Below are positions 5,308-56,512 of a stretch of 64,000 bases of DNA, piece by piece. Below the pieces are notes generated by a model. That model was not told where the DNA came from. It was given only the letters and a program-made list of their open reading frames with translations, and made no database searches. The stretch is from Ruania zhangjianzhongii (lineage in GTDB: Bacteria > Actinomycetota > Actinomycetes > Actinomycetales > Beutenbergiaceae), in the NCBI RefSeq assembly GCF_008000995.1, contig NZ_CP042828.1:2470882-2534881 (forward strand). Reading direction: 5' to 3'. The position numbers and the translations under genes are program-made. How positions within the stretch are numbered: position 1 is the stretch's first letter; each line of letters begins with the position of its first letter.

Positions 5308-7569
5308 ATGACCAGACGGACCGATTCATCCGCCGACGCCGACTCCCGCACCGTCGGAAAGACGTACGCCGACACCGAACCCTGGTGGGAGGAGCCGACC
5401 CGCCCGCCGGCCGGCAGCCCGGATGTCATCGTGATCGTGCTCGACGACGTGGGCTTTGGCAGCTTCGGATGCTACGGCTCCGAGATCGACACCCCGAACA
5501 TCGATGCGCTGGCTGCCGGGGGCATGCAGTACAGCAACTTCCATGCCACCGCGCTCTGCTCACCGACGCGCGCCTCCCTGCTGACCGGCCGCAACCACCA
5601 CTCCATCGGCATGTCCCTGCTCTCGAACGCGGACAGTGGCTACCCGAGCAAGCGCGGGGCGGTCACCCGCAGGTCTGCGACCATCGCCGAGACGCTGCGG
5701 GAGAACGGCTACTCCACGGCCGCCTTCGGTAAGTGGCACCTCACCCCGATGGATCAGACCTCCAGCGTCGGGCCGTTCGAGCACTGGCCGCTGGGGCGTG
5801 GCTTCGACCGCTTCTACGGCTTCATCGAGGGCCTGAACGACCATTTCTACCCGGAGCTGGTGCGGGACAACTCTCGGGTACCTGCCCCGAAGACGCCCGA
5901 GAAGGGCTACCACCTCAGCGAGGATCTGGTTGACGAGGCGATCGGTTTCCTCGCCGACCAGAAGTCCCTCGCACCGGACAAGCCCTACTTCATGTACCTC
6001 GCGTTCGGCGCCGCACACACCCCGCACCAGGCGCCCCTGGAGTACCTCGAGAAGTACCGCGGCCGTTACGACCACGGTTGGGACGCCGTCCGCGAGGAGC
6101 GCCTGAAGAAGCAGAAGCAGCTGGGCCTGGTTCCGGCGGAGACCGAGCTCGCCCCCCGTAACGACGGCGTCCAGGCGTGGGACGACCTCACCGACGACGA
6201 CCGCCGCGTGATGGCGCGGATGCAGGAGGCCTTTGCGGCCATGGTGGACCACACCGATGCTCAGATCGGCCGCCTGCGGGCGCGACTCGACGAGCTCGGC
6301 ACCGCGGAGAACACCCTGATCGTCCTGATGTCGGACAACGGGGCGAGCCAGGAAGGCGGTCTGGACGGGACCACCAATACGATCGCGTTCGAGAACGGCG
6401 ACGCCGTCAGCACCGCCCAGAACCTCAAGGATCTGGACGACATCGGCGGCTCTCGCAACCACACGAACTACCCGCACGGCTGGGCGCAGGCGGGCAACAC
6501 CCCGCTGAAGCGGTACAAGCAGAACGTGCACGCCGGGGGCATCCGGGTGCCGATGGTGATGAGCTGGCCCGCGGCTGCGCGGGACGACTCTACGCCGATG
6601 CGCCACCAGTTCCACAGCGTGATCGACATCGCCCCGACCATTTTCGAGGCGACCGGCGCCGTGATCCCAGAGACCTACCAGGGGGTCGAGCAGATGCCGA
6701 TCCACGGCGAATCGATGTCGTACACCTTCGCCGAGGCGGAGGCGCCGAGCGTGCGGCACACGCAGTACTTCGAGATGTACGGCCACCGGGCGATCTGGCA
6801 CGACGGCTGGAAGGCGGTGGCCTACCACGAGCGGCACAGCCGCTATGAGGACGACGTCTGGGAGCTGTATCACCTGGAGGCGGACTTCTCCGAGTGCCAC
6901 GACCTGGCGCAGGCAGAGCCGAAGCGGCTGGCGGACCTGATCGAGCGCTGGTGGGCGGAGGCCGAGCGTTACGGCGTGTTCCCGCTGGACGATCGCAACT
7001 TCGCCGAGCGGGCCGCGAAGTACCACTCACCGGTCTCGCCCCGGCGCTTCCGCTCCTACCGGCTCCACCGCGGGATGAGCCTGGTCCCCGGCGGCGTGAC
7101 CCCGCTGATCTACGACCGCTCCTACGATCTGCTCGCCCGCGTCGAAGCCACCTCGCTGGACAGCGGTGTGCTCCTGGCTCAGGGCGACGTGAACGGCGGG
7201 CACATCCTGTACGTGCACGAGGGTGCCCTGCACTACGAGTACAACCACCAGGGCACGCGGTACCGCAGCTCGGGGATCCTGCCCGCCGGCGCGATCGCGG
7301 AATTCGGGGTTCGCGTGATCAAGACCGGCGAGCGGCAGGCCCGCACCGAACTGGTCTGCAACGGCGCGATCATCGGCAACGGCGAGATCGCTTCGACGGC
7401 GCGCTACCTGATCGGCTGGCAGGGGCTTACTGTGGGGCATACGGAAGGATCCCCGGTCACCTGGGATGTCGACCTCGCCGGCGGCTTCCCGTTCACGGGA
7501 ACTCTCAGCGTGGTCGATGTGGAGCTGCACCCCGACGGCCCGCACGACGTGCACGAGGTCATCGACTGA
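5308..7569 (+). CDS. Type I (formylglycine) arylsulfatase, cytoplasmic
   Basis: The 753-residue enzyme hydrolyses sulfate esters. The signature C84-S-P-T-R, followed by ASLLTGR, is the formylglycine motif: Cys84 should be oxidised to formylglycine by a generating enzyme that is not encoded in this window. Metal-binding 'VLDDVGFG' (Asp46, Asp47) and a later 'MSDNGASQEGG' complete the alkaline-phosphatase-superfamily core. A C-terminal region of about 150 residues after 'GMSLVPGG' is common in large bacterial arylsulfatases. There is no signal peptide, so hydrolysis should occur in the cytoplasm after uptake by the upstream importer. The ATG at 5308 lies after AAGGAACACG, and earlier in-frame starts would fall within the permease gene. 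Confidence 0.93.
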   Translation: MTRRTDSSADADSRTVGKTYADTEPWWEEPTRPPAGSPDVIVIVLDDVGFGSFGCYGSEIDTPNIDALAAGGMQYSNFHATALCSPTRASLLTGRNHHSIGMSLLSNADSGYPSKRGAVTRRSATIAETLRENGYSTAAFGKWHLTPMDQTSSVGPFEHWPLGRGFDRFYGFIEGLNDHFYPELVRDNSRVPAPKTPEKGYHLSEDLVDEAIGFLADQKSLAPDKPYFMYLAFGAAHTPHQAPLEYLEKYRGRYDHGWDAVREERLKKQKQLGLVPAETELAPRNDGVQAWDDLTDDDRRVMARMQEAFAAMVDHTDAQIGRLRARLDELGTAENTLIVLMSDNGASQEGGLDGTTNTIAFENGDAVSTAQNLKDLDDIGGSRNHTNYPHGWAQAGNTPLKRYKQNVHAGGIRVPMVMSWPAAARDDSTPMRHQFHSVIDIAPTIFEATGAVIPETYQGVEQMPIHGESMSYTFAEAEAPSVRHTQYFEMYGHRAIWHDGWKAVAYHERHSRYEDDVWELYHLEADFSECHDLAQAEPKRLADLIERWWAEAERYGVFPLDDRNFAERAAKYHSPVSPRRFRSYRLHRGMSLVPGGVTPLIYDRSYDLLARVEATSLDSGVLLAQGDVNGGHILYVHEGALHYEYNHQGTRYRSSGILPAGAIAEFGVRVIKTGERQARTELVCNGAIIGNGEIASTARYLIGWQGLTVGHTEGSPVTWDVDLAGGFPFTGTLSVVDVELHPDGPHDVHEVID

Positions 7570-7578
7570 GCAGCGCTG

Positions 7579-7618
7579 GGTGAGCGCACCGGCACCGACC
7601 GTCACCGGTGCGCTCACC
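7579..7618 (+). terminator. Hairpin terminator after the sulfatase operon
   Basis: A perfect 14-bp stem (7579-7592 with 7605-7618, GGTGAGCGCACCGG and its complement) closes a 12-base loop starting nine bases after the sulfatase stop. There is no T-tract, as is common for actinobacterial terminators. Confidence 0.65.
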
Positions 7619-7722
7619 GTGTACTAGCTGGGGCTTCTCCTGCTCGACGGCGCATCTCGCCGGGAGTGCACCAAGGAGCGTGGCACAGTCGGTACAGTTG
7701 GCATCCTTCGACTATCAGGTAC

Positions 7723-7746
7723 GGGAAGTACTTGACGTACTTACCC
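7723..7746 (+). promoter_or_regulatory. Inverted repeat before the toxin-antitoxin pair
   Basis: AAGTAC (7726-7731) and GTACTT (7737-7742) form an inverted repeat around TTGAC, flanked by GGG on one side and, after one extra A, CCC on the other. It lies 22 bases before the antitoxin ATG, where an autoregulating antitoxin would be expected to bind. Confidence 0.45.
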
Positions 7747-7767
7747 ATCCAAGCGGATCATGGATTC

Positions 7768-8220
7768 ATGGACACGTCCGCACGAGTCACCCGCCACTTC
7801 CCGTCGTACACGCACACGCGCGAGCACCTGCGCGATGTGCTGGATGCTGCCGGTTCGGGTCTCGTCACGTCGGTCACCAGGGGCAGCGACAAATTTGTGG
7901 TCGTGCGTGCCGAGCAACAGCGCAGGATGCTCTCGCTGCTTCGTCCTGCTGACGCTCAAGTCGTGGCGGAAGGCGGTGGGTGGGCCGTCATCTTCCCGGG
8001 ATTGCCGGTACACGGCGACGCTGAAACGTTCGATGGTGCCGTTGACGACGCGCTCGGCGCACTGCGCGAGTATGCGGAAGCGTGGAATGACCACCTCCAC
8101 ACCGCTCCGAATCACGTGGACAACCGCGCGGTGGTCGAGCTCATTGAGTTGTCCTCCGACGGTGAACTGCGAGCGTGGGTGCTCGGCGGGGAGGAACCGC
8201 GCGTCGAGGCAGGCGCGTGA
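7768..8220 (+). CDS. Antitoxin, Phd/prevent-host-death-like
   Basis: The 150-residue protein begins at the ATG at 7768. The first 55 residues (TRHFPSYTHTREHLRDVLDAA, then 'VTSVTRGSDKFVVVRAEQQRRML') resemble a Phd/YefM-type DNA-binding antitoxin. The following 'GGWAVIFPGLPVHGDAETFDGAVDDALGALREYAE' looks like a HicB-like strand-helix segment. The gene overlaps the next by GTGA, as in operonic toxin-antitoxin pairs, and an inverted repeat just upstream could be its operator. It would bind and neutralise the downstream protein and repress the pair. The family assignment rests on motif memory and gene order, not on a search. Confidence 0.6.
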   Translation: MDTSARVTRHFPSYTHTREHLRDVLDAAGSGLVTSVTRGSDKFVVVRAEQQRRMLSLLRPADAQVVAEGGGWAVIFPGLPVHGDAETFDGAVDDALGALREYAEAWNDHLHTAPNHVDNRAVVELIELSSDGELRAWVLGGEEPRVEAGA

Positions 8221-8645
8221 ATCCGGGGAGCCGCCGCGACCACAACAAGTTCTGCATGACGGAAGGCTGGACGCGAGTCGGCAATGCGCGTGGTAAGAAG
8301 GCAAGCCACCACGTCACCTACGAATTTCCCCTGCCAGACGGACGGGTGCTACGGACCCGCATCTCGCATCCGGTCAACGCAGCGACCTACGGCGCCAGCC
8401 TGTGGGCTCACATCCTCCGGGAACAATTGGATGTCACCGAGGCCGAGTTCTGGGCCTGCGTGAAGGACGGTGCGCGACCATCTCGCGGGTCGGCACCCGC
8501 GGCCCGTGAGGATGCCCTCCCGGCAGGCCTTGCCTGGCAACTCATCCACTCGGCCGGAGTTCCGGAGGCGGAGGTCGCCACGATGACCCGGGCTGAGGCG
8601 ATCGAGCGCATGAACGAGTTCTGGGCGAAGCCTGCGGACGGCTGA
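8217..8645 (+). CDS. Putative toxin partner of the Phd-like antitoxin
   Basis: The GTG at 8217 overlaps the antitoxin stop, giving a 142-residue basic protein beginning VNPGSRRDHNKFCMTEGW. The block 'HHVTYEFPLPDGRVLRTRISHPVNAATYGASLWAHILREQLDVTEAEFWACVKD' resembles actinobacterial proteins usually annotated as cytotoxic translational repressors of toxin-antitoxin systems, which sit next to a Phd-like gene in the same order. No catalytic residues can be named from sequence alone. The C-terminal half is predicted mostly helical. Role as toxin is inferred from order and overlap. Confidence 0.5.
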   Translation: MNPGSRRDHNKFCMTEGWTRVGNARGKKASHHVTYEFPLPDGRVLRTRISHPVNAATYGASLWAHILREQLDVTEAEFWACVKDGARPSRGSAPAAREDALPAGLAWQLIHSAGVPEAEVATMTRAEAIERMNEFWAKPADG

Positions 8646-8734
8646 CCGACATCGACGGCGGGTTTGGTCAATCAGCAATCAGGCATTTTGCGATGGGCGA
8701 CTCCGTTCGATCCCCGCCGGTGCCCGTGAGGGCA

Positions 8735-9478
8735 TCAGGCCTTCACCCACGTCGGAGTCCCGAACGCCCACTGGTCGTTGGTCTGCCGCACGCGCACGTG
8801 GTACCAGTCGCGTCCCGCAGGTTCGCGCACGTCCTCAACGTCGACCTCTAGCTCCCGCTCACCATCTGCGACGGCGCGGTGGAACTGGAACGCCGGGCTG
8901 ACGAACCCCGCGGTGTAGCCGGACCGCGGGCCCGAACGGAGTTCACCCACGGTGTACGCCTTGCGCACGCCGTTCACCACGGCGCGCACCACGGTGCGAT
9001 CGGTGCCGGACACCCGGAGCACCAGCTGTTGGGTCGCGTCGGTCATCACGGTCGGGTTGGCCACGGTGCGGGTCCGCAAGCGGACCGTGTTCGTCGCGGT
9101 TCGCTCCCACGAGCTGAAGGCATAGGCCGACGGCGGTGGGCTGAGCGGGTCGACGATGTCGATCCCGCGTAGTCGCGGCTCCACCTCGGTGAGCGTCCCG
9201 TTCTCGATCTCGAGCTGCACGTCCCAGTCGGTGGTCGTTCCGGCCTGCCCCCACCCCACGCTCAAACTGACCAGACCGCTGAAGACCGACCCAGCCTGCG
9301 CCGTCGGGCCGGTTCCGGACCAGACCACCTCCCCGTTGCGGACCACCTCCACCAGATCGATCCGGTCCCGCGCGGTGATGCTCGCGCGCACGCGCCGCTG
9401 GCGGGTCGCTGGTGCGAGTCCGCCCATCGGTACCCCGTTGACGGCGGAGTGAGCGTGGTGGAACGGACCCCGCGATTG
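8735..9478 (-). pseudogene. C-terminal remnant of a DUF3604-type protein
   Basis: The frame is open from 9478 down to 8735 and encodes about 248 residues. It matches only the end of the large (over 600 residue) DUF3604 proteins: 'SAVNGVPMGG', then 'RASITARDRIDLVEVVRNGEVVW', and the closing 'DWYHVRVRQTNDQWAFGTPTWV', where intact members read close to 'YY(L/V)R(V/I).Q.....AWSSPIWV'. The conserved 'VNG.PMG' lies before the first possible ATG at 9427, and a TGA stops the frame at 9479-9481. The metal-binding N-terminal two thirds are therefore missing. It is probably a decay product. Such proteins often occur near sulfatases, so it may once have belonged with the operon to its left. Confidence 0.6.
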
Positions 9479-10885
9479 TCACCGGCGGGATCTAGCGTGA
9501 GGGCCCTTCGACGACCCCATCCAGACCTGTCCAGAATCGAGGCCCGCGAGGTGGCCCACTGCGCCGAACCACCGTTGTCCTACACCGGCCGACTGCCGCT
9601 TAGCACCACCCGTTCTGGAGCGTTTGTCTTTGACCGCAGCGACGCTCTCATTCCTGTGGGCTACGTGCGACCTGGTCGTGGATATCGATCCGCGCTGCGG
9701 ACCCTTTACACAGCGCGCGCGGATAAGGACGGCAAGGTGGTCTCGGTTACCGAATCGCTTTCGTGGAGAGTGGTCGGAACCAGTCCGAACGGAAAGCCGT
9801 ACACGCGTTGGTTCCCCAGCGCGATCACAGTACTGCGCCGTTTGCCGACAGGCCGCCAGGCGATCTTTCGTCGTGTCTGGTCACGTTCGGGTCAACGACG
9901 TTTCGGGTTCGCGTTCTACGCCGGTGACGAGACCATTTCTGACGCGCTCCGGGACCTAGCCGGTGAGCTGCTGGGCCCAGCGCCACACTTCCTCGAGATG
10001 CACCCTCTGCTTGGCGAGCACGATCGCCTGACCATCCAACACCAGACCTTCACTCGCAACTTCTGGAGGGTAGACAACATCCCCGACCTGACTCGGAACC
10101 TTTTCGGTGCTTCCCGCTACCGCAAGGATCTCGTCAAAGCTGTTGCTCGGGCGCGTCCGCTGGGCTTGTTCGCGGCTTGGTCGATGCGCGGACTGGTACC
10201 AACTGACTGGGTCATTACGCTGCTGCAACGTCACACTGCAACTGCTGAAGACCACCGTCTCGACGGGTGGGTCCGCCAGGTACCTCAGAGCGACCTAAGA
10301 CCGCACCTTCGCGGTCTGGATGAGGTGACCCTGCGCCGGTTGACCCGTAACGTCACTGGCTTGACGAGCCAGCAGATAAGAGATCTGACTTGGATGCAGG
10401 TTGCCCCACCCGTGCGGCTACGGACATGGGAGGAACTGCATGACCACACCGCTCGGATCGACAACCTCGCCCGGCGGGCTCGCCAGAGGATGCGCTCGGC
10501 CGGCTCCGAGGTCCACGATCGCGCGCGCATCGATAGCGAGCGGTCAGCGTTGACGGGAATCACCGAGCGTGGGCTGCGAGTCTTCACCGCCACCGAACCT
10601 GAGACCCTCCTGGACTGGGGACGTGCCGCGCGAAACTGTATCTCGTCCTATGAGCAGGGACTGCTCTATGGGACGGTGCACCTGCTCGGGATCTACGACG
10701 GCGGGGCGCTCGTGGCCAACGCCGAGATCGAACCCGGCCCGCCGCCAAACCTCCGTCAGCTGCTCGGTCGCTTCAACAAGCATCTACCACGGGAGCAGCA
10801 CGATGACATCGTCGCTTTCCTGACCGGCCGTGGCGTCGACTGCAGCGGGACCTATGAGGGCCGCATCGGCTGCACCGCAGCGTGA
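9449..10885 (+). CDS. PcfJ-like protein
   Basis: The 478-residue protein has a C-terminal segment (about residues 385-465) of the PcfJ type: 'RAARNCISSYEQGLLYGTVHLLGIYDGGALVANAEIE', then 'LLGRFNKHLPREQHDDIVAFL'. PcfJ is named from a conjugative plasmid, but related proteins are scattered over mobile and defence regions and have no settled function. The rest is rich in Arg and Trp with no recognised domain. The start used is a GTG that overlaps the divergent DUF3604 remnant by 30 bases. A later start is possible because residues 1-45 look less constrained. It stands alone, with no conjugation genes nearby. Confidence 0.55.
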   Translation: MSVVERTPRLSPAGSSVRALRRPHPDLSRIEAREVAHCAEPPLSYTGRLPLSTTRSGAFVFDRSDALIPVGYVRPGRGYRSALRTLYTARADKDGKVVSVTESLSWRVVGTSPNGKPYTRWFPSAITVLRRLPTGRQAIFRRVWSRSGQRRFGFAFYAGDETISDALRDLAGELLGPAPHFLEMHPLLGEHDRLTIQHQTFTRNFWRVDNIPDLTRNLFGASRYRKDLVKAVARARPLGLFAAWSMRGLVPTDWVITLLQRHTATAEDHRLDGWVRQVPQSDLRPHLRGLDEVTLRRLTRNVTGLTSQQIRDLTWMQVAPPVRLRTWEELHDHTARIDNLARRARQRMRSAGSEVHDRARIDSERSALTGITERGLRVFTATEPETLLDWGRAARNCISSYEQGLLYGTVHLLGIYDGGALVANAEIEPGPPPNLRQLLGRFNKHLPREQHDDIVAFLTGRGVDCSGTYEGRIGCTAA

Positions 10886-11073
10886 TGTGTTAAGGGAATT
10901 GTCGGGTCTTCGGGGTAAAATACCGACTTTCGGTTCCATCTAGATCTCGTAGAACACGATTGTCTCGCTGCGTTGCTCACTTTCCCACGGTCGCGCAACA
11001 GATGCGCACCGGCGAGCTGTATTCGCGACGCGAACGGCCCTGCGGTGTCGGTGCCTCGTTGTACGGTGGGCGC

Positions 11074-11859
11074 ATGCCAGCTACCCCGCCTCCCGATGGC
11101 CTACAGCCGCCAGAATGGGTCCTCGACAAACTCAAGGACCAGACACGCGAGTCCTACATCACCGATCATGGCTTCGACACGAACCAGTTGCGGCTGGACT
11201 GGTGGCAGAGGGAACTCGACAGGGTGGAGACGTGGCCGAAGGGCCGGTTCAAGGTCAGTGTCGACCCGAACGACCGCGGCGCCGCTCGGCTCACTCGCGG
11301 CGACCTATTCGAACTGGCGCGAGACGCGAAGTCCGACGACGACGTCCTCAACCTGCTCTGGCATGTGGTGATCTGGGGCAGTGGGAAGTTCGTCCGAAAC
11401 AACCGCAGACGCATCAATTCCTTCGTCCAGGCGGAGGACGAACACAGGAACGTCAACCTACTGCGCGATGCTGCCGCGGCCGCCCGAGAGGGCGATGCCC
11501 GCACCGCCTACTCCACCCTGATCCGGCGAGGCGGCGGCGAGGTCAGTGGCCTGGGCCCAGCTTTCTACACGAAGTTCCTCTACTTCAACAGCGACCAGGA
11601 CAGTGAGCGCATTTGCCCGATTTTGGATGCCCGCGTCGCCAAGGCCCTCTACGACCCCACGATCGGCTGGGACATCCACCCCTCATCGCGCAAGAAGGCC
11701 AGCCGAACCGCGTTTAGTGCCAACTGGTATACGGACACGTACGTGGACTACTGCTACCTGCTGCGCTCTTGGGCCAAGACGGCATCTGCTGATATTGGCC
11801 GGTTAGTAGTGGCGGATGAGATCGAGTTCGGGCTCTTCGATGGACCCCCGAAGCGCTGA
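11074..11859 (+). CDS. OGG-fold (8-oxoguanine DNA glycosylase-like) protein
   Basis: The 261-residue protein starts at the ATG at 11074. 'SGLGPAFYTKFLYFNSDQDSERICPILDARVAKALYD' matches a group of bacterial proteins annotated as 8-oxoguanine DNA glycosylase OGG fold proteins. It carries the helix-hairpin-like segment and a conserved Asp-bearing 'ILD..VA'. The usual catalytic Lys/Asp arrangement of OGG1 is not obvious, so base-excision activity should not be assumed. N-terminal residues 1-95 are charged and unassigned. It is a single gene between the PcfJ-like gene and an unknown two-gene module, a setting that suggests a defence or mobile-element role. Confidence 0.5.
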   Translation: MPATPPPDGLQPPEWVLDKLKDQTRESYITDHGFDTNQLRLDWWQRELDRVETWPKGRFKVSVDPNDRGAARLTRGDLFELARDAKSDDDVLNLLWHVVIWGSGKFVRNNRRRINSFVQAEDEHRNVNLLRDAAAAAREGDARTAYSTLIRRGGGEVSGLGPAFYTKFLYFNSDQDSERICPILDARVAKALYDPTIGWDIHPSSRKKASRTAFSANWYTDTYVDYCYLLRSWAKTASADIGRLVVADEIEFGLFDGPPKR

Positions 11860-12279
11860 CCGCTCGCTCTGCCCAGATGGCTCAACATCGGGAGCGCGCG
11901 CTGTGTAGGTGTCGCCGGAGACGCACCCGAGCGGGTATCTGCCCCGGTCTCGCGACCTGTGGAGACCATGCTTTTGGCTCACAACGTAGTTGCTGTCAAG
12001 GGACATCCCATTGTCCATTGACAATCGTCGGCGACCCGAATTTGCGGGGGCTGTGGTTTCGCCCGAGTTCGACGGAGTCTGGTCGATCCGCAATCACTCC
12101 ACGTCGAGCCCCATGCATCTGATCAAGACGTCCTGGCGGGCCCGACCCACCGAAGCGGTAGACGCTGCCACGACCCGACGGGTGCCAGCTCCCGGTCTGG
12201 CCGCGAGCCACAGTTCCGATCGGTGGCCCCCACAGTCTCAAATGGCCACGAGACTCCCACCACTTCGTGTGGCTGCGTG
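11860..12279. other. Intergenic stretch with no convincing gene
   Basis: Convergent flanking genes leave 420 bases here. Short frames on both strands have no conserved motif, start signal or codon pattern typical of the neighbours. I see no repeat, RNA gene or clear terminator. Confidence 0.6.
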
Positions 12280-51161: not shown

Positions 51162-51650
51162 ATGAAGTACACGATCCCGATCGAGATCGCGCTGCCACGG
51201 GAGAAGGTCGTTCAGCTACTCGAGGACCCCGCACACCGACCGAAGTGGCTACGAGGCTTGGTGTCGCACGAGCCGTTACGTGGTGTGGACGGGCAGGTCG
51301 GCACCGAGTCACGGGTCGTGTTCCAGTCGGGGCAGCAGTCCATGGAGTGCACCGAGACCATCACGCGCCGGGAACCGGCGAGCCTGCACGGTATCTCGGC
51401 GGACCGTGTGGTCTATTTCGCGCGTGAGATCGTTGCGGATGGCATGTGGAGTGCCGCTCGTGAACAGCTGACTGCGACCGGCCCGGAGAGCACGCTCTGG
51501 GTGAGCGAGAACGAATACCGGTTCAGCGGCCTGATGCGAGTGGTGGCTCCGTTCATGCGCGGTGCCTTCATCAAGCAGTCACGACAGCATATGCAGGACT
51601 TCAAGGCGTTCAGCGAGCACGGAACAGACATCCGCGAAGCGGAAGGCTGA
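51162..51650 (+). CDS. SRPBCC-family protein
   Basis: The 162-residue protein begins 'MKYTIPIEIALPREKVVQLLEDPAHRPKWLRGLVSHEPLRGVDGQVGTESRVVFQSG', a START-like helix-grip fold of the polyketide-cyclase-like group. It ends with the long helix 'AFIKQSRQHMQDFKAFSEHG'. GGAGGAACCTGGAG precedes the start. It is the fourth gene of the ArsR cluster by position. Ligand unknown. Confidence 0.82.
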   Translation: MKYTIPIEIALPREKVVQLLEDPAHRPKWLRGLVSHEPLRGVDGQVGTESRVVFQSGQQSMECTETITRREPASLHGISADRVVYFAREIVADGMWSAAREQLTATGPESTLWVSENEYRFSGLMRVVAPFMRGAFIKQSRQHMQDFKAFSEHGTDIREAEG

Positions 51651-51707: not shown

Positions 51708-52136
51708 TCACCCGGCCGGACGGCTCGCCGTCGTCGTGGTGCGCGCTCCGAGCAGCTGGTCGAAGACCTGCTCTCCGGTCGGTTCGAATCCGCAGCGCAG
51801 GTAGAAGCCCTCTGGCCCACCCTCGCCCGGTGCCCACAGGACCGTGATCCGGTCCCGCCCCCGGCTCTGGGCCTCGCGGGCGACCCCCTCGACCGCGAAC
51901 CGCCCGACGCCCCGCCCTTGCTGGTCGGCGGCGACATTCAGCCGCCAGATCCCGCAACGAAAGGCCGCGAGCTCGTTCTCGGGGTCGAAGTTGGCCATGA
52001 CGAACCCGACGACGACGTCCCCGTCGAGGATCGCCCTCGGCCACGCCGTGGGTGTCACATAGGCCTCGGCGACCGAGTGCGCGATCGGGGCGACGAAGCG
52101 ATCCTGACCGCTACTGTCCGTGCGGGAAGGGAACCA
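51708..52136 (-). pseudogene. GNAT acetyltransferase lacking its N-terminal start
   Basis: The frame is open from 52136 to 51708. The acetyl-CoA-binding core is intact: 'LNVAADQQGRGVGRFAVEGVAREAQSRG' with the Q/R-x-x-G-x-G/A loop, and 'FYLRCGFEPTGEQV'. Conserved residues 'SGQDRFVAPIAHSVAEAY' lie before the first possible start (GTG at 52058), and a TGA at 52137-52139 closes the frame above them. Intact relatives begin about 20 residues earlier. Either the 5' end was lost, or translation starts at the GTG and yields a 116-residue protein of doubtful fold. Confidence 0.55.
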
Positions 52137-52321
52137 TCAGGGTCGACGGGACACCGAGGTCACCAGAGTGGGTAGCCAGACGGATCCGTCGCGACATGCG
52201 TCATTGCCCCGATCAGCATGATCTGGATATGTGAGAACGCGGGCGGATCTGGACCAACTGTTTCATACTGACAACAGCGGATTGAATGCTGGCGCAGCCG
52301 ATGTCGACGGAGCGAGCGAAG

Positions 52322-52825
52322 ATGAGTACCTCCAACTTTGAGTTCACCTTCGAGGTGGCTGAACTGAACGACACTGCCGTGGATGCGATTGAGCTCCACT
52401 ATGACTGTGTCGAGTCGACGCACGGACGCACGACAGAGTTGACTCTGTTGGTTCCCGGGATGAACGCGACCGATGCAGCCAGTGAAGCGATCAACCGGAT
52501 TTTGGCTGCTGGGGTCACCGTCCGTCGGCTAGTCGATGATCTGGTCACCAGGACTGAGATTGCCGAGCGTGCGGACGTTACGTCTCAAGCGGTGGGCCTA
52601 TGGGCCCGTGGCGAGCGGAAGCGCGGCGTGTCCTTTCCTGAGCCTTACGTGTATGCAGGGAGCGTCAGGCTGTGGCTCTGGGGCGAGGTGGCGACCTATC
52701 TGCGAGCGGCCCACGTTCCGATCGACGAGGGCGTGCAGTATCCAGGTCGGGCGGAGACTCTCCGGATCGCCGGGCTGATTGCCGACCTTCTGGCGGGTCA
52801 TCGCCCGGTCACCGCTGCTGGTTAG
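52322..52825 (+). CDS. Hypothetical protein with HTH-like segment
   Basis: The ATG at 52322 follows GGAGCGAGCGAAG; ATGs at 52286 and 52301 are alternatives. The 167-residue protein starts with a beta-strand-rich region (NFEFTFEVAELNDTAVDAIELHYDCVE) of about 75 residues. A MerR/AlpA-like helix-turn-helix follows: 'LVTRTEIAERADVTSQAVGLWARGERK', with a wing 'FPEPYVYAGSVRLWLWGEVATYL'. This two-part layout recurs in actinobacterial proteins of unknown role, perhaps small DNA-binding sensors. It has no obvious partner gene. Confidence 0.6.
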   Translation: MSTSNFEFTFEVAELNDTAVDAIELHYDCVESTHGRTTELTLLVPGMNATDAASEAINRILAAGVTVRRLVDDLVTRTEIAERADVTSQAVGLWARGERKRGVSFPEPYVYAGSVRLWLWGEVATYLRAAHVPIDEGVQYPGRAETLRIAGLIADLLAGHRPVTAAG

Positions 52826-53260
52826 GCGGTTCCAGGCTGGAGGGCCTGGGCGACGGCCACCGGACTCATGCCTAGGCACGTCGGGCGTGGCTTCGTCACA
52901 CACGTATCGAATACCCCGGGTCTACCAGCTGAGGTCGCGGCTGGATGAGCGATCCTCTACGGCTGAGTTCCGCCGTCGGAGGCACTCGTATGCGTGAGGG
53001 AGGTCGACGGTGACCGTGATCAGCGCCTGACGCGAGGAGATGCCTTCCGGCTCGAGCGGCCACGACTCGTTGTCTCCAGAACCCGACCGGCTACTCACCG
53101 CGGTGCCGCCAACAGGGTCCGCAGAACGGCCTCGGCTTTGTCCGGCTCACACCTCGCCCACCGCGGCTCCGCCCTTGTCACAGTCGGCCGCATCATCCGG
53201 TCTCGGGTGTTGACGACCGGTTCGCAGGGACGAACCGGTCCCGAACGCGAGGAGATGTGC
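52826..53260. other. Intergenic stretch before the SDR gene
   Basis: The 435 bases hold an ECF41-type promoter (53176-53202) near the right end. On the left is a TCCGCCGTCGGAGG motif (52969-52982) that also occurs at 48961-48974. A short minus-strand frame ending 'EPDKAEAVLRTLLAAPR' before a stop near 53095 might be a regulator tail, but is too short to call. Confidence 0.5.
53176..53202 (+). promoter_or_regulatory. ECF41-type promoter upstream of the SDR gene
   Basis: TGTCACA at 53176-53182, a 16-base spacer and GGTC at 53199-53202 match the form of promoters read by ECF41 sigma factors (TGTCACA with a CGTC-like -10). The downstream site at 54083-54109 has the same boxes and spacing. The SDR start lies 58 bases beyond the -10. 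Confidence 0.65.
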
Positions 53261-54028
53261 ATGAGCGAGCAGGCAACACACCAGACAGTCGCTCTGGTGA
53301 CCGGAGCCAATAAGGGCATCGGCCGGGCCGCGGCCGAACAACTCGCAGCGCGAGGTATGACCGTGCTGATCGGCGCCCGAGACGCCGAGCGCGGCAGTGC
53401 AGCAGCAGCATCGCTGGCCGCAACCGGCGCCCGAGTGCACGCGCTCACCCTGGACGTGACCGACCCCGGTACGGCAGAACGCGCGGCGCGGCAGATCGAG
53501 GAGCGCTTTGGCCGGCTCGATGTCCTGATCAACAACGCCGGGATCACCGGTTCCGGGCAGGTGTCGCCCGATGATGCCTATGACCAGGTGCCGAGCTCGG
53601 TCGATCTGGACATGGTCCGGACCGTGTTCGAGACCAATGTGTTCGGGGTGATCACCGTGACGAACGCCATGCTGCCGCTGTTGCGGCGATCGCCTCGGGC
53701 GCGCATCGTCAACGTCGCCAGTCACGCTGCCTCGCTGGCAATGAACAGCGATCCGACGGGACCGCTGGCCGGCCTGCTGCCATCGGCGGCCTACTCACCC
53801 TCCAAGAGCGCGCTGACCGCGCTCACGGTGCAGTACGCCAACGAGCTGCGATCCGATGGCATCCTGGTCAACGCTGTCGCCCCCGGCTTCGTCGCCACCG
53901 ACAGCAACGACCACACCGGATACCTGTCGGTCGCAGAGGGCGCCGCAGCCCTGGTGCGGATGGCCACGCTCGGCGCGGACGGGCCGACCGCGGGTTTCGT
54001 CAGCGAGCAGGGCCCGGTGCCGTGGTGA
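53261..54028 (+). CDS. Short-chain dehydrogenase/reductase
   Basis: I start at the ATG at 53261 after GAGGAG; a second ATG at 53255 sits too close to the ribosome site. The 255-residue enzyme has the NAD(P) motif TGANKGIG (14-21), 'DVTDPGTAERAARQIEERFGRLDVLINNAGI' with NNAG, the catalytic Ser in 'IVNVASHAAS' and Tyr/Lys in 'AAYSPSKSAL'. The Asn in 'FETNVFGV' is also present. It is probably a carbonyl reductase of broad use. It lies upstream of the epimerase-ECF41 pair and shares the same promoter type, so it is likely part of that regulon. Confidence 0.9.
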   Translation: MSEQATHQTVALVTGANKGIGRAAAEQLAARGMTVLIGARDAERGSAAAASLAATGARVHALTLDVTDPGTAERAARQIEERFGRLDVLINNAGITGSGQVSPDDAYDQVPSSVDLDMVRTVFETNVFGVITVTNAMLPLLRRSPRARIVNVASHAASLAMNSDPTGPLAGLLPSAAYSPSKSALTALTVQYANELRSDGILVNAVAPGFVATDSNDHTGYLSVAEGAAALVRMATLGADGPTAGFVSEQGPVPW

Positions 54029-54082
54029 ACACCGCCGATGGCGGCGCTGCTACTGACGCCGACGGCAGCACGCGGGGCTCCA

Positions 54083-54109
54083 TGTCACAGCCGAGCGCCC
54101 CATCTGGTC
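54083..54109 (+). promoter_or_regulatory. ECF41-type promoter upstream of the epimerase-sigma operon
   Basis: TGTCACA at 54083-54089, 16 bases, then GGTC at 54106-54109. The boxes and spacing equal those before the SDR gene, and several spacer bases agree. The epimerase ATG is 43 bases downstream of the -10. As the operon encodes the sigma factor, this would be autoregulation. Confidence 0.7.
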
Positions 54110-54151
54110 CTGCTGATGACAGCGGAAACCAGAGTTGAGAAGGAAGACCTT

Positions 54152-55084
54152 ATGCACGTGTTCGTAGCAGGCGGGACCGGTGTGCTGGGACAGCGGCTGG
54201 TGGCGCAGCTGGTTGCCCGTGGCCATCAGGTGACCGCAACGACGACGAGCAGGACCAAGCTCGTTCTCGTGAAGCGGCTGGGCGCCGAGGGCGTGGTGAT
54301 GAACGGGTTGGACGCCTCCTCGGTCGGACAGGCCGTGGCGGCTGCGCGGCCGGACGCGATTGCCCACCAGATGACGGCAATCTCCGTGACGCACGCCGGC
54401 AAGCCGGACCTGAAGCACCCGGACCGCTGGATGGCCACCACCATCCGGCTGCGCATCGAAGGCACCGACCATCTGCTGGCCGCAGCCGAGGCAGCCGCCG
54501 TGCCCCACGTGGTCGCGCAGAGCTACGCCAGCTGGAACGGCATCCGCCAGGGTGGCTGGGTCAAGACCGAAGAGGACCCACTGGACCCCGAAGAGGGCAC
54601 GATCGCCCACGCGGGGGCCGAGGCGATCCGGCACGTCGAGGACGCCGTCGGAAAGGCTGACGGTGCGGTGCTCCGCTACGGTGGTCTGTACGGCCCGGGC
54701 GCCACCGACGACCAGGTCGAACTCATCCGCAAGCGCCAGTTCCCACTCGTCGGCGCCGGCACCGGCTACTTCTCCTGGGTGCATCTCGACGACGCCGCAA
54801 GCGCGACCGTGCTGGCCCTGGAGCAGGAGGCGCGAGGCGTGTTCAACATCGTTGACGACGAGCCCGCCCCGGTCAGCCAGTGGCTGCCCTACCTGGCCGA
54901 GAGTGCGGGCGCGAAGCCGCCGATGCGCATTCCTCGATGGCTGGCCCGGCCGCTGGCCGGTGATGCGGCAGTGACGATGATGACCCAGGGCCGTGGCTTC
55001 TCCAACGCCAAGGCCAAGCGGGAGCTCGGCTGGCAGTTGCGTTACCCCTCCTGGCGCCAGGGCTTCAAGGCTGAGCTGGCATGA
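54152..55084 (+). CDS. NAD(P)-dependent epimerase/dehydratase, ECF41-linked
   Basis: The start at 54152 follows AAGGAAGACC. The 310-residue protein has a Rossmann GGTGVLG motif (residues 7-13) in 'MHVFVAGGTGVLGQRLVAQLVARGHQVTATTTSRTK'. Later come 'VVAQSYASWN', 'RYGGLYGPGA' and 'FSWVHLDDAASATVLALEQEARGVFNIVDDEPAPVSQWLPYLAE', typical of extended SDR epimerases. In ECF41 loci the companion gene is a carboxymuconolactone decarboxylase, oxidoreductase or epimerase (COE), and this is the epimerase type. The stop overlaps the sigma gene by ATGA. Substrate unknown. Confidence 0.88.
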   Translation: MHVFVAGGTGVLGQRLVAQLVARGHQVTATTTSRTKLVLVKRLGAEGVVMNGLDASSVGQAVAAARPDAIAHQMTAISVTHAGKPDLKHPDRWMATTIRLRIEGTDHLLAAAEAAAVPHVVAQSYASWNGIRQGGWVKTEEDPLDPEEGTIAHAGAEAIRHVEDAVGKADGAVLRYGGLYGPGATDDQVELIRKRQFPLVGAGTGYFSWVHLDDAASATVLALEQEARGVFNIVDDEPAPVSQWLPYLAESAGAKPPMRIPRWLARPLAGDAAVTMMTQGRGFSNAKAKRELGWQLRYPSWRQGFKAELA

Positions 55085-56013
55085 GGCCGGCGGAGCGCGC
55101 GGAGCAGTTCGAGCAGCTGCGTCCGTTGCTGTTCTCGATCGCCTACCGGATGCTGGGCAGCGTGACCGAGGCCGAGGACGCGGTGCAGGACAGCTGGCTG
55201 CGGTGGGATGCCTCCGACACGACGCCCGACTCGCCGAAAGCATTCCTCTCGGCCGTGGTGACCAGGGTCTCGATCAACGTGCTCAACTCGGCACGGGTGC
55301 GCCGCGAGCAATACGTCGGGCCGTGGTTTCCGGAGCCCTTGCTCGACGACCCGTATGGCGACCCGGAGCGTTCCGCCGAGCTCGCCGACTCACTGTCCAC
55401 GGCGGCGCTGGTGCTGTTGGAAAGACTCAGCCCGTTGGAGCGTGCGGTGTTCGTGCTGCGGGAAGTGTTCCATGTCGACTACGGCGAGATCGCCGCTGCA
55501 GTAGACCGGTCCGAGGCGGCCTGCCGCCAGCTCGCGGTGCGGGCCCGGCGGCACATGGACGCGGGTAAGCCCCGGTTCGAGGCCGACCGGCAGAAGCGGA
55601 CGAAGCTCGCCGAGCGATTCTTCGATGCCTTCACCCACGGCCACCTGGACACCCTGCAGGAGCTCCTCGCCGCGGACGTCCAGATCGTCGCCGACAGCGG
55701 TGGCAAGGCCCCACGATGGGGCAGCGGCGTGTTCGGCGCCAAGAACGTGGCGCGGCTGCTCGCCGGGCTGGCCCCACCCTTCGCCGCGACCGGTGGCATC
55801 ATCGAGCCGCACCAGGTCAACGGCCAGCCGGGCGCCATCCTGCGCGACCGGGACGGCAACGTCATCAACACCCTCGCCCTCGACATCGCCGAGGACCAGG
55901 TCCAGACCATCCGCGCGGTCATCAACCCCGACAAGCTCGGACACCTCGGGCCGGTGGCGGACGTCTGGTCAGTCCTTCGTGAGACGCGGCAGGCCCGCAA
56001 GGAGCTGCGCTGA
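55081..56013 (+). CDS. ECF41-family RNA polymerase sigma factor with SnoaL-like C-terminus
   Basis: The 310-residue protein has sigma region 2 ('LFSIAYRMLGSVTEAEDAVQDSWLRW'), region 4 ('LSPLERAVFVLREVFHVDYGEIAAAVDRSEAACRQLAVRARRHM') and a C-terminal SnoaL-like domain. ECF41 hallmarks are all visible: WFPEPL (82-87) in the linker, a DGDGK-like DRDGNV (256-261) and NPDKL (282-286). No anti-sigma gene is present. The fused SnoaL-like domain is reported to control activity in this family. Two matching TGTCACA promoters upstream are its likely targets. Confidence 0.92.
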   Translation: MRPAERAEQFEQLRPLLFSIAYRMLGSVTEAEDAVQDSWLRWDASDTTPDSPKAFLSAVVTRVSINVLNSARVRREQYVGPWFPEPLLDDPYGDPERSAELADSLSTAALVLLERLSPLERAVFVLREVFHVDYGEIAAAVDRSEAACRQLAVRARRHMDAGKPRFEADRQKRTKLAERFFDAFTHGHLDTLQELLAADVQIVADSGGKAPRWGSGVFGAKNVARLLAGLAPPFAATGGIIEPHQVNGQPGAILRDRDGNVINTLALDIAEDQVQTIRAVINPDKLGHLGPVADVWSVLRETRQARKELR

Positions 56014-56047
56014 GCACACCGCGCCGTGGCCAGAACAGGTGAAGTCC

Positions 56048-56512
56048 TCAGCCGGGGCCAGTACCGGGTCGATCCTTCGGGTGCGGTGGTTGGTGCGGAC
56101 TGGTCTGCGGGAAGCGCCGGCGATCCTCCCGCACCTCGCGAGCCCAGTGGGGGTAGAAGGCATCCGGGATCGGGATGAAGACCAGCACCCAGTACAGCAG
56201 TGGGACAACCAGCAGGCCGAGCAGGATGGCTCCAGTGAGAGTGGTGACCGCGATCACGTCCGTGCCGACGAGCTCCAGCCCGAAGGCATTCCGCGGCAGC
56301 GCGATCGCACCGAAGGCAACGAGGCCGAACCCACAGGTGGGCCCGCCGAAGATGACCATCCGCTCGCTGTGGATGCTGTGGGTAGGAGGGCCCGGTGTGT
56401 ACATCCAACGTCGAGCGCGGTACGAACCACCGCGCCGGGCCCAGATGGTGACGGCAAGGATGATCAGCCCTGCCGCGAGGAAGACCAGCGTCCCCACTTC
56501 TCGCTGCGACAT
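56048..56512 (-). CDS. Small membrane protein of unknown function
   Basis: The 154-residue protein has three to four hydrophobic segments: 'GTLVFLAAGLIILAVTIWARRGG', 'MVIFGGPTCGFGLVAFGAIAL' and 'TTLTGAILLGLLVVPLLYWVLVFIPIPDAFYPHW'. The charged C-terminal tail is rich in Pro and Arg. I recognise no family. It is convergent with the ECF41 gene, 34 bases away. Confidence 0.6.
   Translation of the reverse strand: MSQREVGTLVFLAAGLIILAVTIWARRGGSYRARRWMYTPGPPTHSIHSERMVIFGGPTCGFGLVAFGAIALPRNAFGLELVGTDVIAVTTLTGAILLGLLVVPLLYWVLVFIPIPDAFYPHWAREVREDRRRFPQTSPHQPPHPKDRPGTGPG

Follow-up and report, generated by a model that had tools for sequence, protein, structure and literature searches.

Does a single sigma factor of the ECF41 type control two neighbouring enzyme genes from two promoters of the same design? 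The question is raised by a stretch of 64,000 nucleotides from Ruania zhangjianzhongii (hereafter the window; the surrounding genome measures 5.1 Mb), in which genes for a short-chain dehydrogenase/reductase (SDR), a protein of the NAD-dependent epimerase family and an ECF41 sigma factor follow each other on one strand. ECF41 factors are widespread. A reading of the window from its sequence only had proposed that the sigma factor autoregulates and also drives the SDR, giving a two-enzyme regulon with a GGTC variant of the -10 element. The conservation of both promoters in relatives supports this proposal. Very probably, two enzymes make up an ECF41 regulon at this locus, with the sigma factor acting at a promoter upstream of the SDR gene (P1) and at a second one upstream of the epimerase gene (P2), and with a -10 element that has drifted to GGTC.

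Both predicted promoters are present as the sequence-only reading described them. TGTCACA-N16-GGTC occurs exactly at two positions on the plus strand, each time with a spacer of 16 (Table 1), and starts 85 bases before the ATG of the SDR gene and 69 bases before that of the epimerase gene. Compared with the ECF41 promoter TGTCACA-N16±1-CGTC, either site has one mismatch, the G of GGTC. The sigma factor scores above the cut-offs of the SigX4 model (TIGR02957, 360.5 bits, cut-off 323.25) and of the SigJ model (NF007214, 328.2 bits, cut-off 271), and it matches the solved SigJ (5xe7) over residues 7–285, C-terminal domain included (E 4.3e-49). Its only sigma domains are sigma2 (PF04542) and sigma4 (PF08281), as is usual for the ECF type. 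The C-terminal extension is SnoaL-like in that the SigJ alignment reaches residue 285, and no SnoaL Pfam match was obtained at E 1e-3. The expected ECF41 marks WFPEPL, DRDGNV and NPDKL are all found in the translation, the first being a W[LF]PEP linker. The proposed linkage to an epimerase holds as well: a PF01370 protein, the partner enzyme typical of ECF41 loci, is encoded directly upstream, its stop codon sharing a 4-base overlap (ATGA) with the sigma ATG. No Pfam match to an anti-sigma family was found in the four flanking open reading frames (ORFs; 51162-51647, 51708-52058, 52286-52822 and 56048-56512), two of which matched nothing.

The evidence that carries the SDR promoter comes from relatives, where sites lie at much the same place before the SDR orthologues. 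Genome contigs were scanned with an alignment of four SDR orthologues, the best 80 loci were kept and family loci were added; a site was counted if the 150 bases upstream of the SDR contained TGTCACA-N15..17-CGTC with at most 2 mismatches in 11 positions. Such a site precedes 19 of the 21 close SDR orthologues, the window included, compared with 5 of the 72 distant ones (p 2.7e-13 in a Fisher test; such values overstate independence here because the loci are related by descent). For the close set a first-order Markov null gives 11%. L054 and L145–L153 were kept out of the distant control. Duplicates were treated as such: L144 was dropped (promoter sequences as in L075), L215 is the L064 gene, L046 and L076 are one gene counted once, and L259, L263, L265 and L266 equal L234, L236, L235 and L227. 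In a second family, that of the Nonomuraea dietziae genome G419 (150 genomes), 12 SDR loci were found, one of them a duplicate of L064, and all 11 new loci have the site, which brings the pooled count to 30/32. The SDR paralogue from the window's own genome (L052, 50% identity) has no site within two mismatches. At L079 (Glycomyces) only a weak site is seen (GGTCACG..CGTC), and this genome is the sole one of 20 searched without an ECF41 factor at E 1e-60; in a phylum sample, which holds many small genomes, 51 of 296 genomes contain one at this threshold. Within one family the SDR (E 1e-95) and the close sigma factor (E 1e-100) occur together, the latter being present in 10 of 12 genomes with the SDR versus 38 of 138 others (p 2e-4).

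The gene layouts also connect SDR and sigma factor. In the genome-contig set, 10 of the 17 close loci have an ECF41 gene in the neighbourhood of the SDR, compared with 3 of the 63 distant ones, and in the pooled set such a gene adjoins the SDR in 18 of 32 loci, the window among them. The arrangement varies: SDR and ECF41 gene share a strand with no epimerase found (L065, L066, L071, L216, L220, L222), or the order SDR-epimerase-sigma is combined with an SDR promoter only (L064, Nonomuraea dietziae), or the SDR is divergent from the sigma gene (L070, L073, L075, L078, L087, L219, L225) or from an epimerase-sigma unit (L223, L226). In Nonomuraea cavernae (L077) SDR and epimerase-sigma unit are convergent, and each has its own promoter. 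In 12 of the 32 loci the site is present and no ECF41 gene was found in the stretch read (14 kb each for G008, G009, G010 and G018; 8 to 13 kb for L069, L072 from Streptomyces abyssalis, L074 and L079; 10.8 to 12 kb for L217, L218, L221 and L224). For these loci we predict that the SDR is controlled in trans. In G018, which belongs to the genus of the window, the close sigma factor is encoded on a different contig, and the SDR lies at least 24 kb from both ends of its own contig. As a separate observation, the back-to-back -35 elements of five divergent loci from Micromonospora, Actinomadura and Nocardia (L070, L073, L075, L078, L087) have their 5' ends exactly 35 bases apart in all five, with a -10 of CATC on the SDR side and CGTC on the sigma side. 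Another concerns L105 from Cohnella sp. REN36, one of the five distant SDRs with a site: its SDR (52%) has TGTCACA-N16-CATC upstream and an ECF41-like sigma gene (34%) downstream, and from this locus the link between SDR and ECF41 may reach beyond actinobacteria.

At the epimerase side, a TGTCACA-like site followed by N16 or N17 and CGTC lies 59-72 bases before the gene in 15 relatives, the 16 epimerase loci compared having been picked after a site had already been seen in each. No close epimerase site was found in L021/L038 (the paralogue in the same genome), L037, L064, L068, L161, L162 or L231. SDR and epimerase promoters have common bases around the -10 element, close to GCTGTCT-CGTC-TCGGG. 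A weak test, which sought only hairpin-plus-T-run signals, detected nothing terminator-like from the SDR gene to the epimerase gene. Therefore, transcription from P1 may extend into the epimerase and sigma genes. Nonomuraea dietziae offers a parallel, its gene order being identical and only the SDR promoter being found. A variant of the preferred reading, rather than its opposite, would make P1 the main promoter of an SDR-epimerase-sigma operon and P2 an internal booster. We regard this as possible but on the whole unlikely, since the match of P2 is as good as that of P1 and an epimerase-sigma unit with a promoter of its own occurs in many relatives.

Whether the sigma factor of this locus is the one that reads P1 was judged from matched promoter variants. 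Several other ECF41 paralogues are encoded in the genome (42, 42, 39, 34 and 34% identity, plus weaker ones) and might read the sites. If the SDR promoter were real but read mainly by one of them, the two neighbouring units would have no common regulator. Two of these paralogues have TGTCACA-N16-TGTC upstream; P1, however, has GGTC as P2 does. In addition, the first -10 base agrees between SDR promoter and partner promoter in all 14 chosen pairs, including the two in which it is not C, an agreement reached by random partner matching in 1 of 182 cases. The pairs were hand-chosen loci or genomes in which the SDR and its partner each have a promoter. G008, G423, G424, G427 and G556 were left out (one side without a clear site, or another sigma type), as was G507 (C on both sides, which would agree); for G422, G441 and G563, outside the 14 pairs, no partner promoter was looked for. 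Together with the recurrence of SDR and sigma gene in one operon in relatives, this makes control by a paralogue improbable, and argues for a two-enzyme regulon under the sigma factor of the locus itself. An observation on the paralogues in its own right is that at L039 (G000:C2:1139000-1157000, about 7300-11950, minus strand) two tandem units, each an ORF resembling an FAD/NAD oxidoreductase by eye and then an ECF41 paralogue, are preceded each by the identical 27-mer TGTCACAGATCCGGGTGCACCGGTGTC.

The variation of the -10 element was compared with sigma residue 66 in region 2, the -10 being read without demanding its first base. Sigma factors with Asp66 and a readable promoter have C as the first -10 base in 46 of 46 cases; two further Asp66 rows (L064 and L231) have no promoter in the stretch read. 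With Asn66 the base is G (the window) or T at the same-strand site in 7 of 7, and L160 has in addition an overlapping divergent site with C. In the alignment with Mycobacterium tuberculosis SigJ, which resembles the window sigma factor in domain layout over residues 7–285, an Arg stands opposite Arg62 and an Asp opposite Asn66. In the excerpts on the open complex of M. tuberculosis sigma-H (PMC6411747), residue N92 touches the -10 element at base pair -11, and SigJ has an Arg where sigma-H has N88. Since Arg62 and Asn66 stand four residues apart in the SigJ alignment, residue 66 of the window sigma factor corresponds to N92. Sigma-H is not an ECF41 factor, and the base that varies here lies just upstream of the pair contacted by N92 (PMC6411747). 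Regarding the -35 element, three sigma factors whose promoters read TGTCAGR (L065, L066 and L071, corresponding to L158, L157 and L156) have His149 in region 4, compared with Arg149 in 58 other rows; the three form one clade and thus represent one event. In G557 (L219/L234/L259) SDR and ECF41 gene are divergent and either promoter has TCTCACA as its -35, a variant; the sigma factor of G557, alone among those compared, has His at 151. We tentatively suggest for the ECF41 factors of this clade that residue 66 sets the first -10 base (Asp for C, Asn for G or T) and that the -35 is set by residues 149/151. Small trans regulons would then co-evolve with their sigma factor, and unlinked SDR and epimerase promoters would drift together, insulating paralogous ECF41 circuits in one genome; this may well be so, though we lean slightly to doubt. 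Rewiring of ECF specificity is reportedly known in general, from work ascribed to Todor et al. in 2020. The matched variants of promoter and sigma factor point to specific residues and bases for comparison.

Besides the common descent of the loci and the paralogues mentioned above, several points weigh against the two-enzyme regulon and the matched variants. No site within two mismatches precedes the SDR of L067 or L068 over 150 bases. Among the same 14 pairs, 5 disagree in the second -10 base and 7 in the -35. G429, left out of the pairs, has CGTC at the SDR (L074) and a poor TGTCATG-N16-TGTC near the ECF41 gene (L171) and would disagree. The window's genome is the only one in which a cognate -10 reads GGTC, as it does at P1 and P2, alongside Asn66. 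The link between residue 66 and the -10 base comprises three changes on the sigma tree (independent-pairs sign test p 0.5). A phylogenetic proof of this link was therefore not reached, there being too few independent changes, and it is kept as a suggestion; the trait columns left out of the tree were numbered on another alignment and may be slightly off. Finally, the sequence-only reading had looked to a genome-wide enrichment of the pattern as a check, and none was seen: the loose pattern TGTCACA...SGTC gives 11 matches versus 17 for the reversed control, and TGTCACA-N15..17-NRTC gives 13 versus 23. Enrichment as proof of a regulon was rejected, the reversed control being the commoner. P1 and P2 are the only sites in the genome with a spacer of 16 and SGTC. 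Within the window TGTCACA-N14..18-SGTC has 2 matches versus 0.64 expected, with at least two in 16 of 100 shuffles, which is not significant by itself, and TGTCACA alone shows no excess (4 versus 6.68 expected). Thus, the sites are credible because they are conserved in relatives, not because of the pattern count. A rival reading, with the site before the SDR being a relic or due to chance and only the epimerase-sigma operon a target, would fit the commonness of the bare pattern and the single target operon of the ECF41 cases in the excerpts of PMC3426412 and PMC6180224, but it is hardly credible in view of the site counts in close, distant and further SDR loci and of the alike bases around the -10 elements of SDR and epimerase promoters.

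For the favoured two-enzyme regulon the following course is conceivable. According to the parts of PMC8999054 and PMC3426412 consulted, the C-terminal domain presumably keeps ECF41 factors inactive. We infer from the sequence comparisons that the sigma factor carries its own regulatory domain here and that activity would start with the release of the sigma factor by this SnoaL-like domain, which would sense the inducing signal. Released sigma factor would recognise P2 directly and bring RNA polymerase there for transcription of the epimerase gene and its own gene (positive autoregulation), and likewise to P1 for that of the SDR gene, possibly with read-through into the epimerase and sigma genes. 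Both enzymes and the sigma factor itself would rise after release. P1 and P2 may have drifted from CGTC to GGTC jointly with the change at residue 66. As to the chemistry, the best solved chains for the SDR are an alcohol dehydrogenase, plant menthone and isopiperitenone reductases, salutaridine reductase and carbonyl reductase 1, and the SDR protein also matches PF01370, weakly. The best NCBIfam model for the epimerase is NF058621, a diazo-compound reductase model (E 1.9e-65), at 221.5 bits and under its cut-off of 400. Probably, both enzymes are NAD(P)-dependent and reduce a small carbonyl or a reactive compound related to one; that this reduction detoxifies or tailors a small molecule may reasonably be guessed. 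With the SDR as a conserved predicted target, the possible chemistry is confined to two NAD(P)-dependent enzymes, and the regulon becomes directly testable. As sequence evidence, the two predicted promoters on two enzyme genes and the predicted trans SDR targets in relatives speak against a single-target model of ECF41 factors. Reportedly, an Azospirillum ECF41 factor controls motility and lateral flagella, and wider ECF41 roles are thus not unheard of.

In the excerpts of Wecke et al. 2012 (PMC3426412), the ECF41 factors of Bacillus licheniformis and Rhodobacter sphaeroides have TGTCACA-N16±1-CGTC upstream of an enzyme gene and no anti-sigma factor; the linker consensus is WLPEP, and the gene linked to an ECF41 factor encodes a carboxymuconolactone decarboxylase, an oxidoreductase or an epimerase. 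Bacillus subtilis, according to the same authors, has no ECF41 factor. The window shares with these loci the C-terminal extension, the W[LF]PEP linker, the epimerase partner, the enzyme-then-sigma order and the promoter on the enzyme gene. It differs in the -10 GGTC and in a second enzyme gene with its own promoter, which recurs as a predicted target in relatives, often away from any ECF41 gene. The oxidoreductase domain list seen in PMC3426412 does not include adh_short, and SDRs might have been entered under 'epimerase' in that work. Sinorhizobium meliloti RpoE9, according to the excerpts of PMC6180224, is likewise an ECF41 factor with matching -35 and -10 elements upstream of a linked enzyme gene, but unlike the window it has a single target, a carboxymuconolactone decarboxylase. 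The ECF41 cases compared are reported to control their own linked operon only; the SDR is a conserved predicted target with or without an adjoining ECF41 gene. In the open-licence literature, supplements excepted, we recognised no description of an SDR (adh_short) as an ECF41 target.

Table 1. Positions within the window of the three genes, the two predicted promoters and the two sigma codons compared with promoter variants.
Feature	Position	Strand	Remarks
Predicted ECF41 promoter P1, upstream of SDR	53176..53202	+	-35 TGTCACA (53176-53182), N16, -10 GGTC (53199-53202)
SDR gene (classical, adh_short), 255 aa	53261..54028	+	PF00106, E 3.4e-46
Predicted ECF41 promoter P2, upstream of epimerase	54083..54109	+	-35 TGTCACA (54083-54089), N16, -10 GGTC (54106-54109)
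NAD-dependent epimerase family gene (atypical SDR), 310 aa	54152..55084	+	PF01370, E 1.8e-17
ECF41 sigma gene (SigJ/SigX4 type), 310 aa	55081..56013	+	TIGR02957, NF007214 and 5xe7 matches
Codon of sigma Asn66 (region 2)	55276..55278	+	Asp in relatives reading CGTC; from alignments and promoter reading
Codon of sigma Arg149 (region 4)	55525..55527	+	His in three relatives with -35 TGTCAGR

Three minor points concern the surroundings. A housekeeping promoter for the locus was rejected, with 0 sigma-70-like sites in 52900-56200. A further TGTCACA at 52053-52059, with no SGTC at a spacing of 14-18, coincides with the start of a GNAT ORF that runs on the other strand. Upstream of P1, a 179-residue ORF on the plus strand (52286-52825), without a Pfam or NCBIfam match, contains by eye a stretch resembling a helix-turn-helix.
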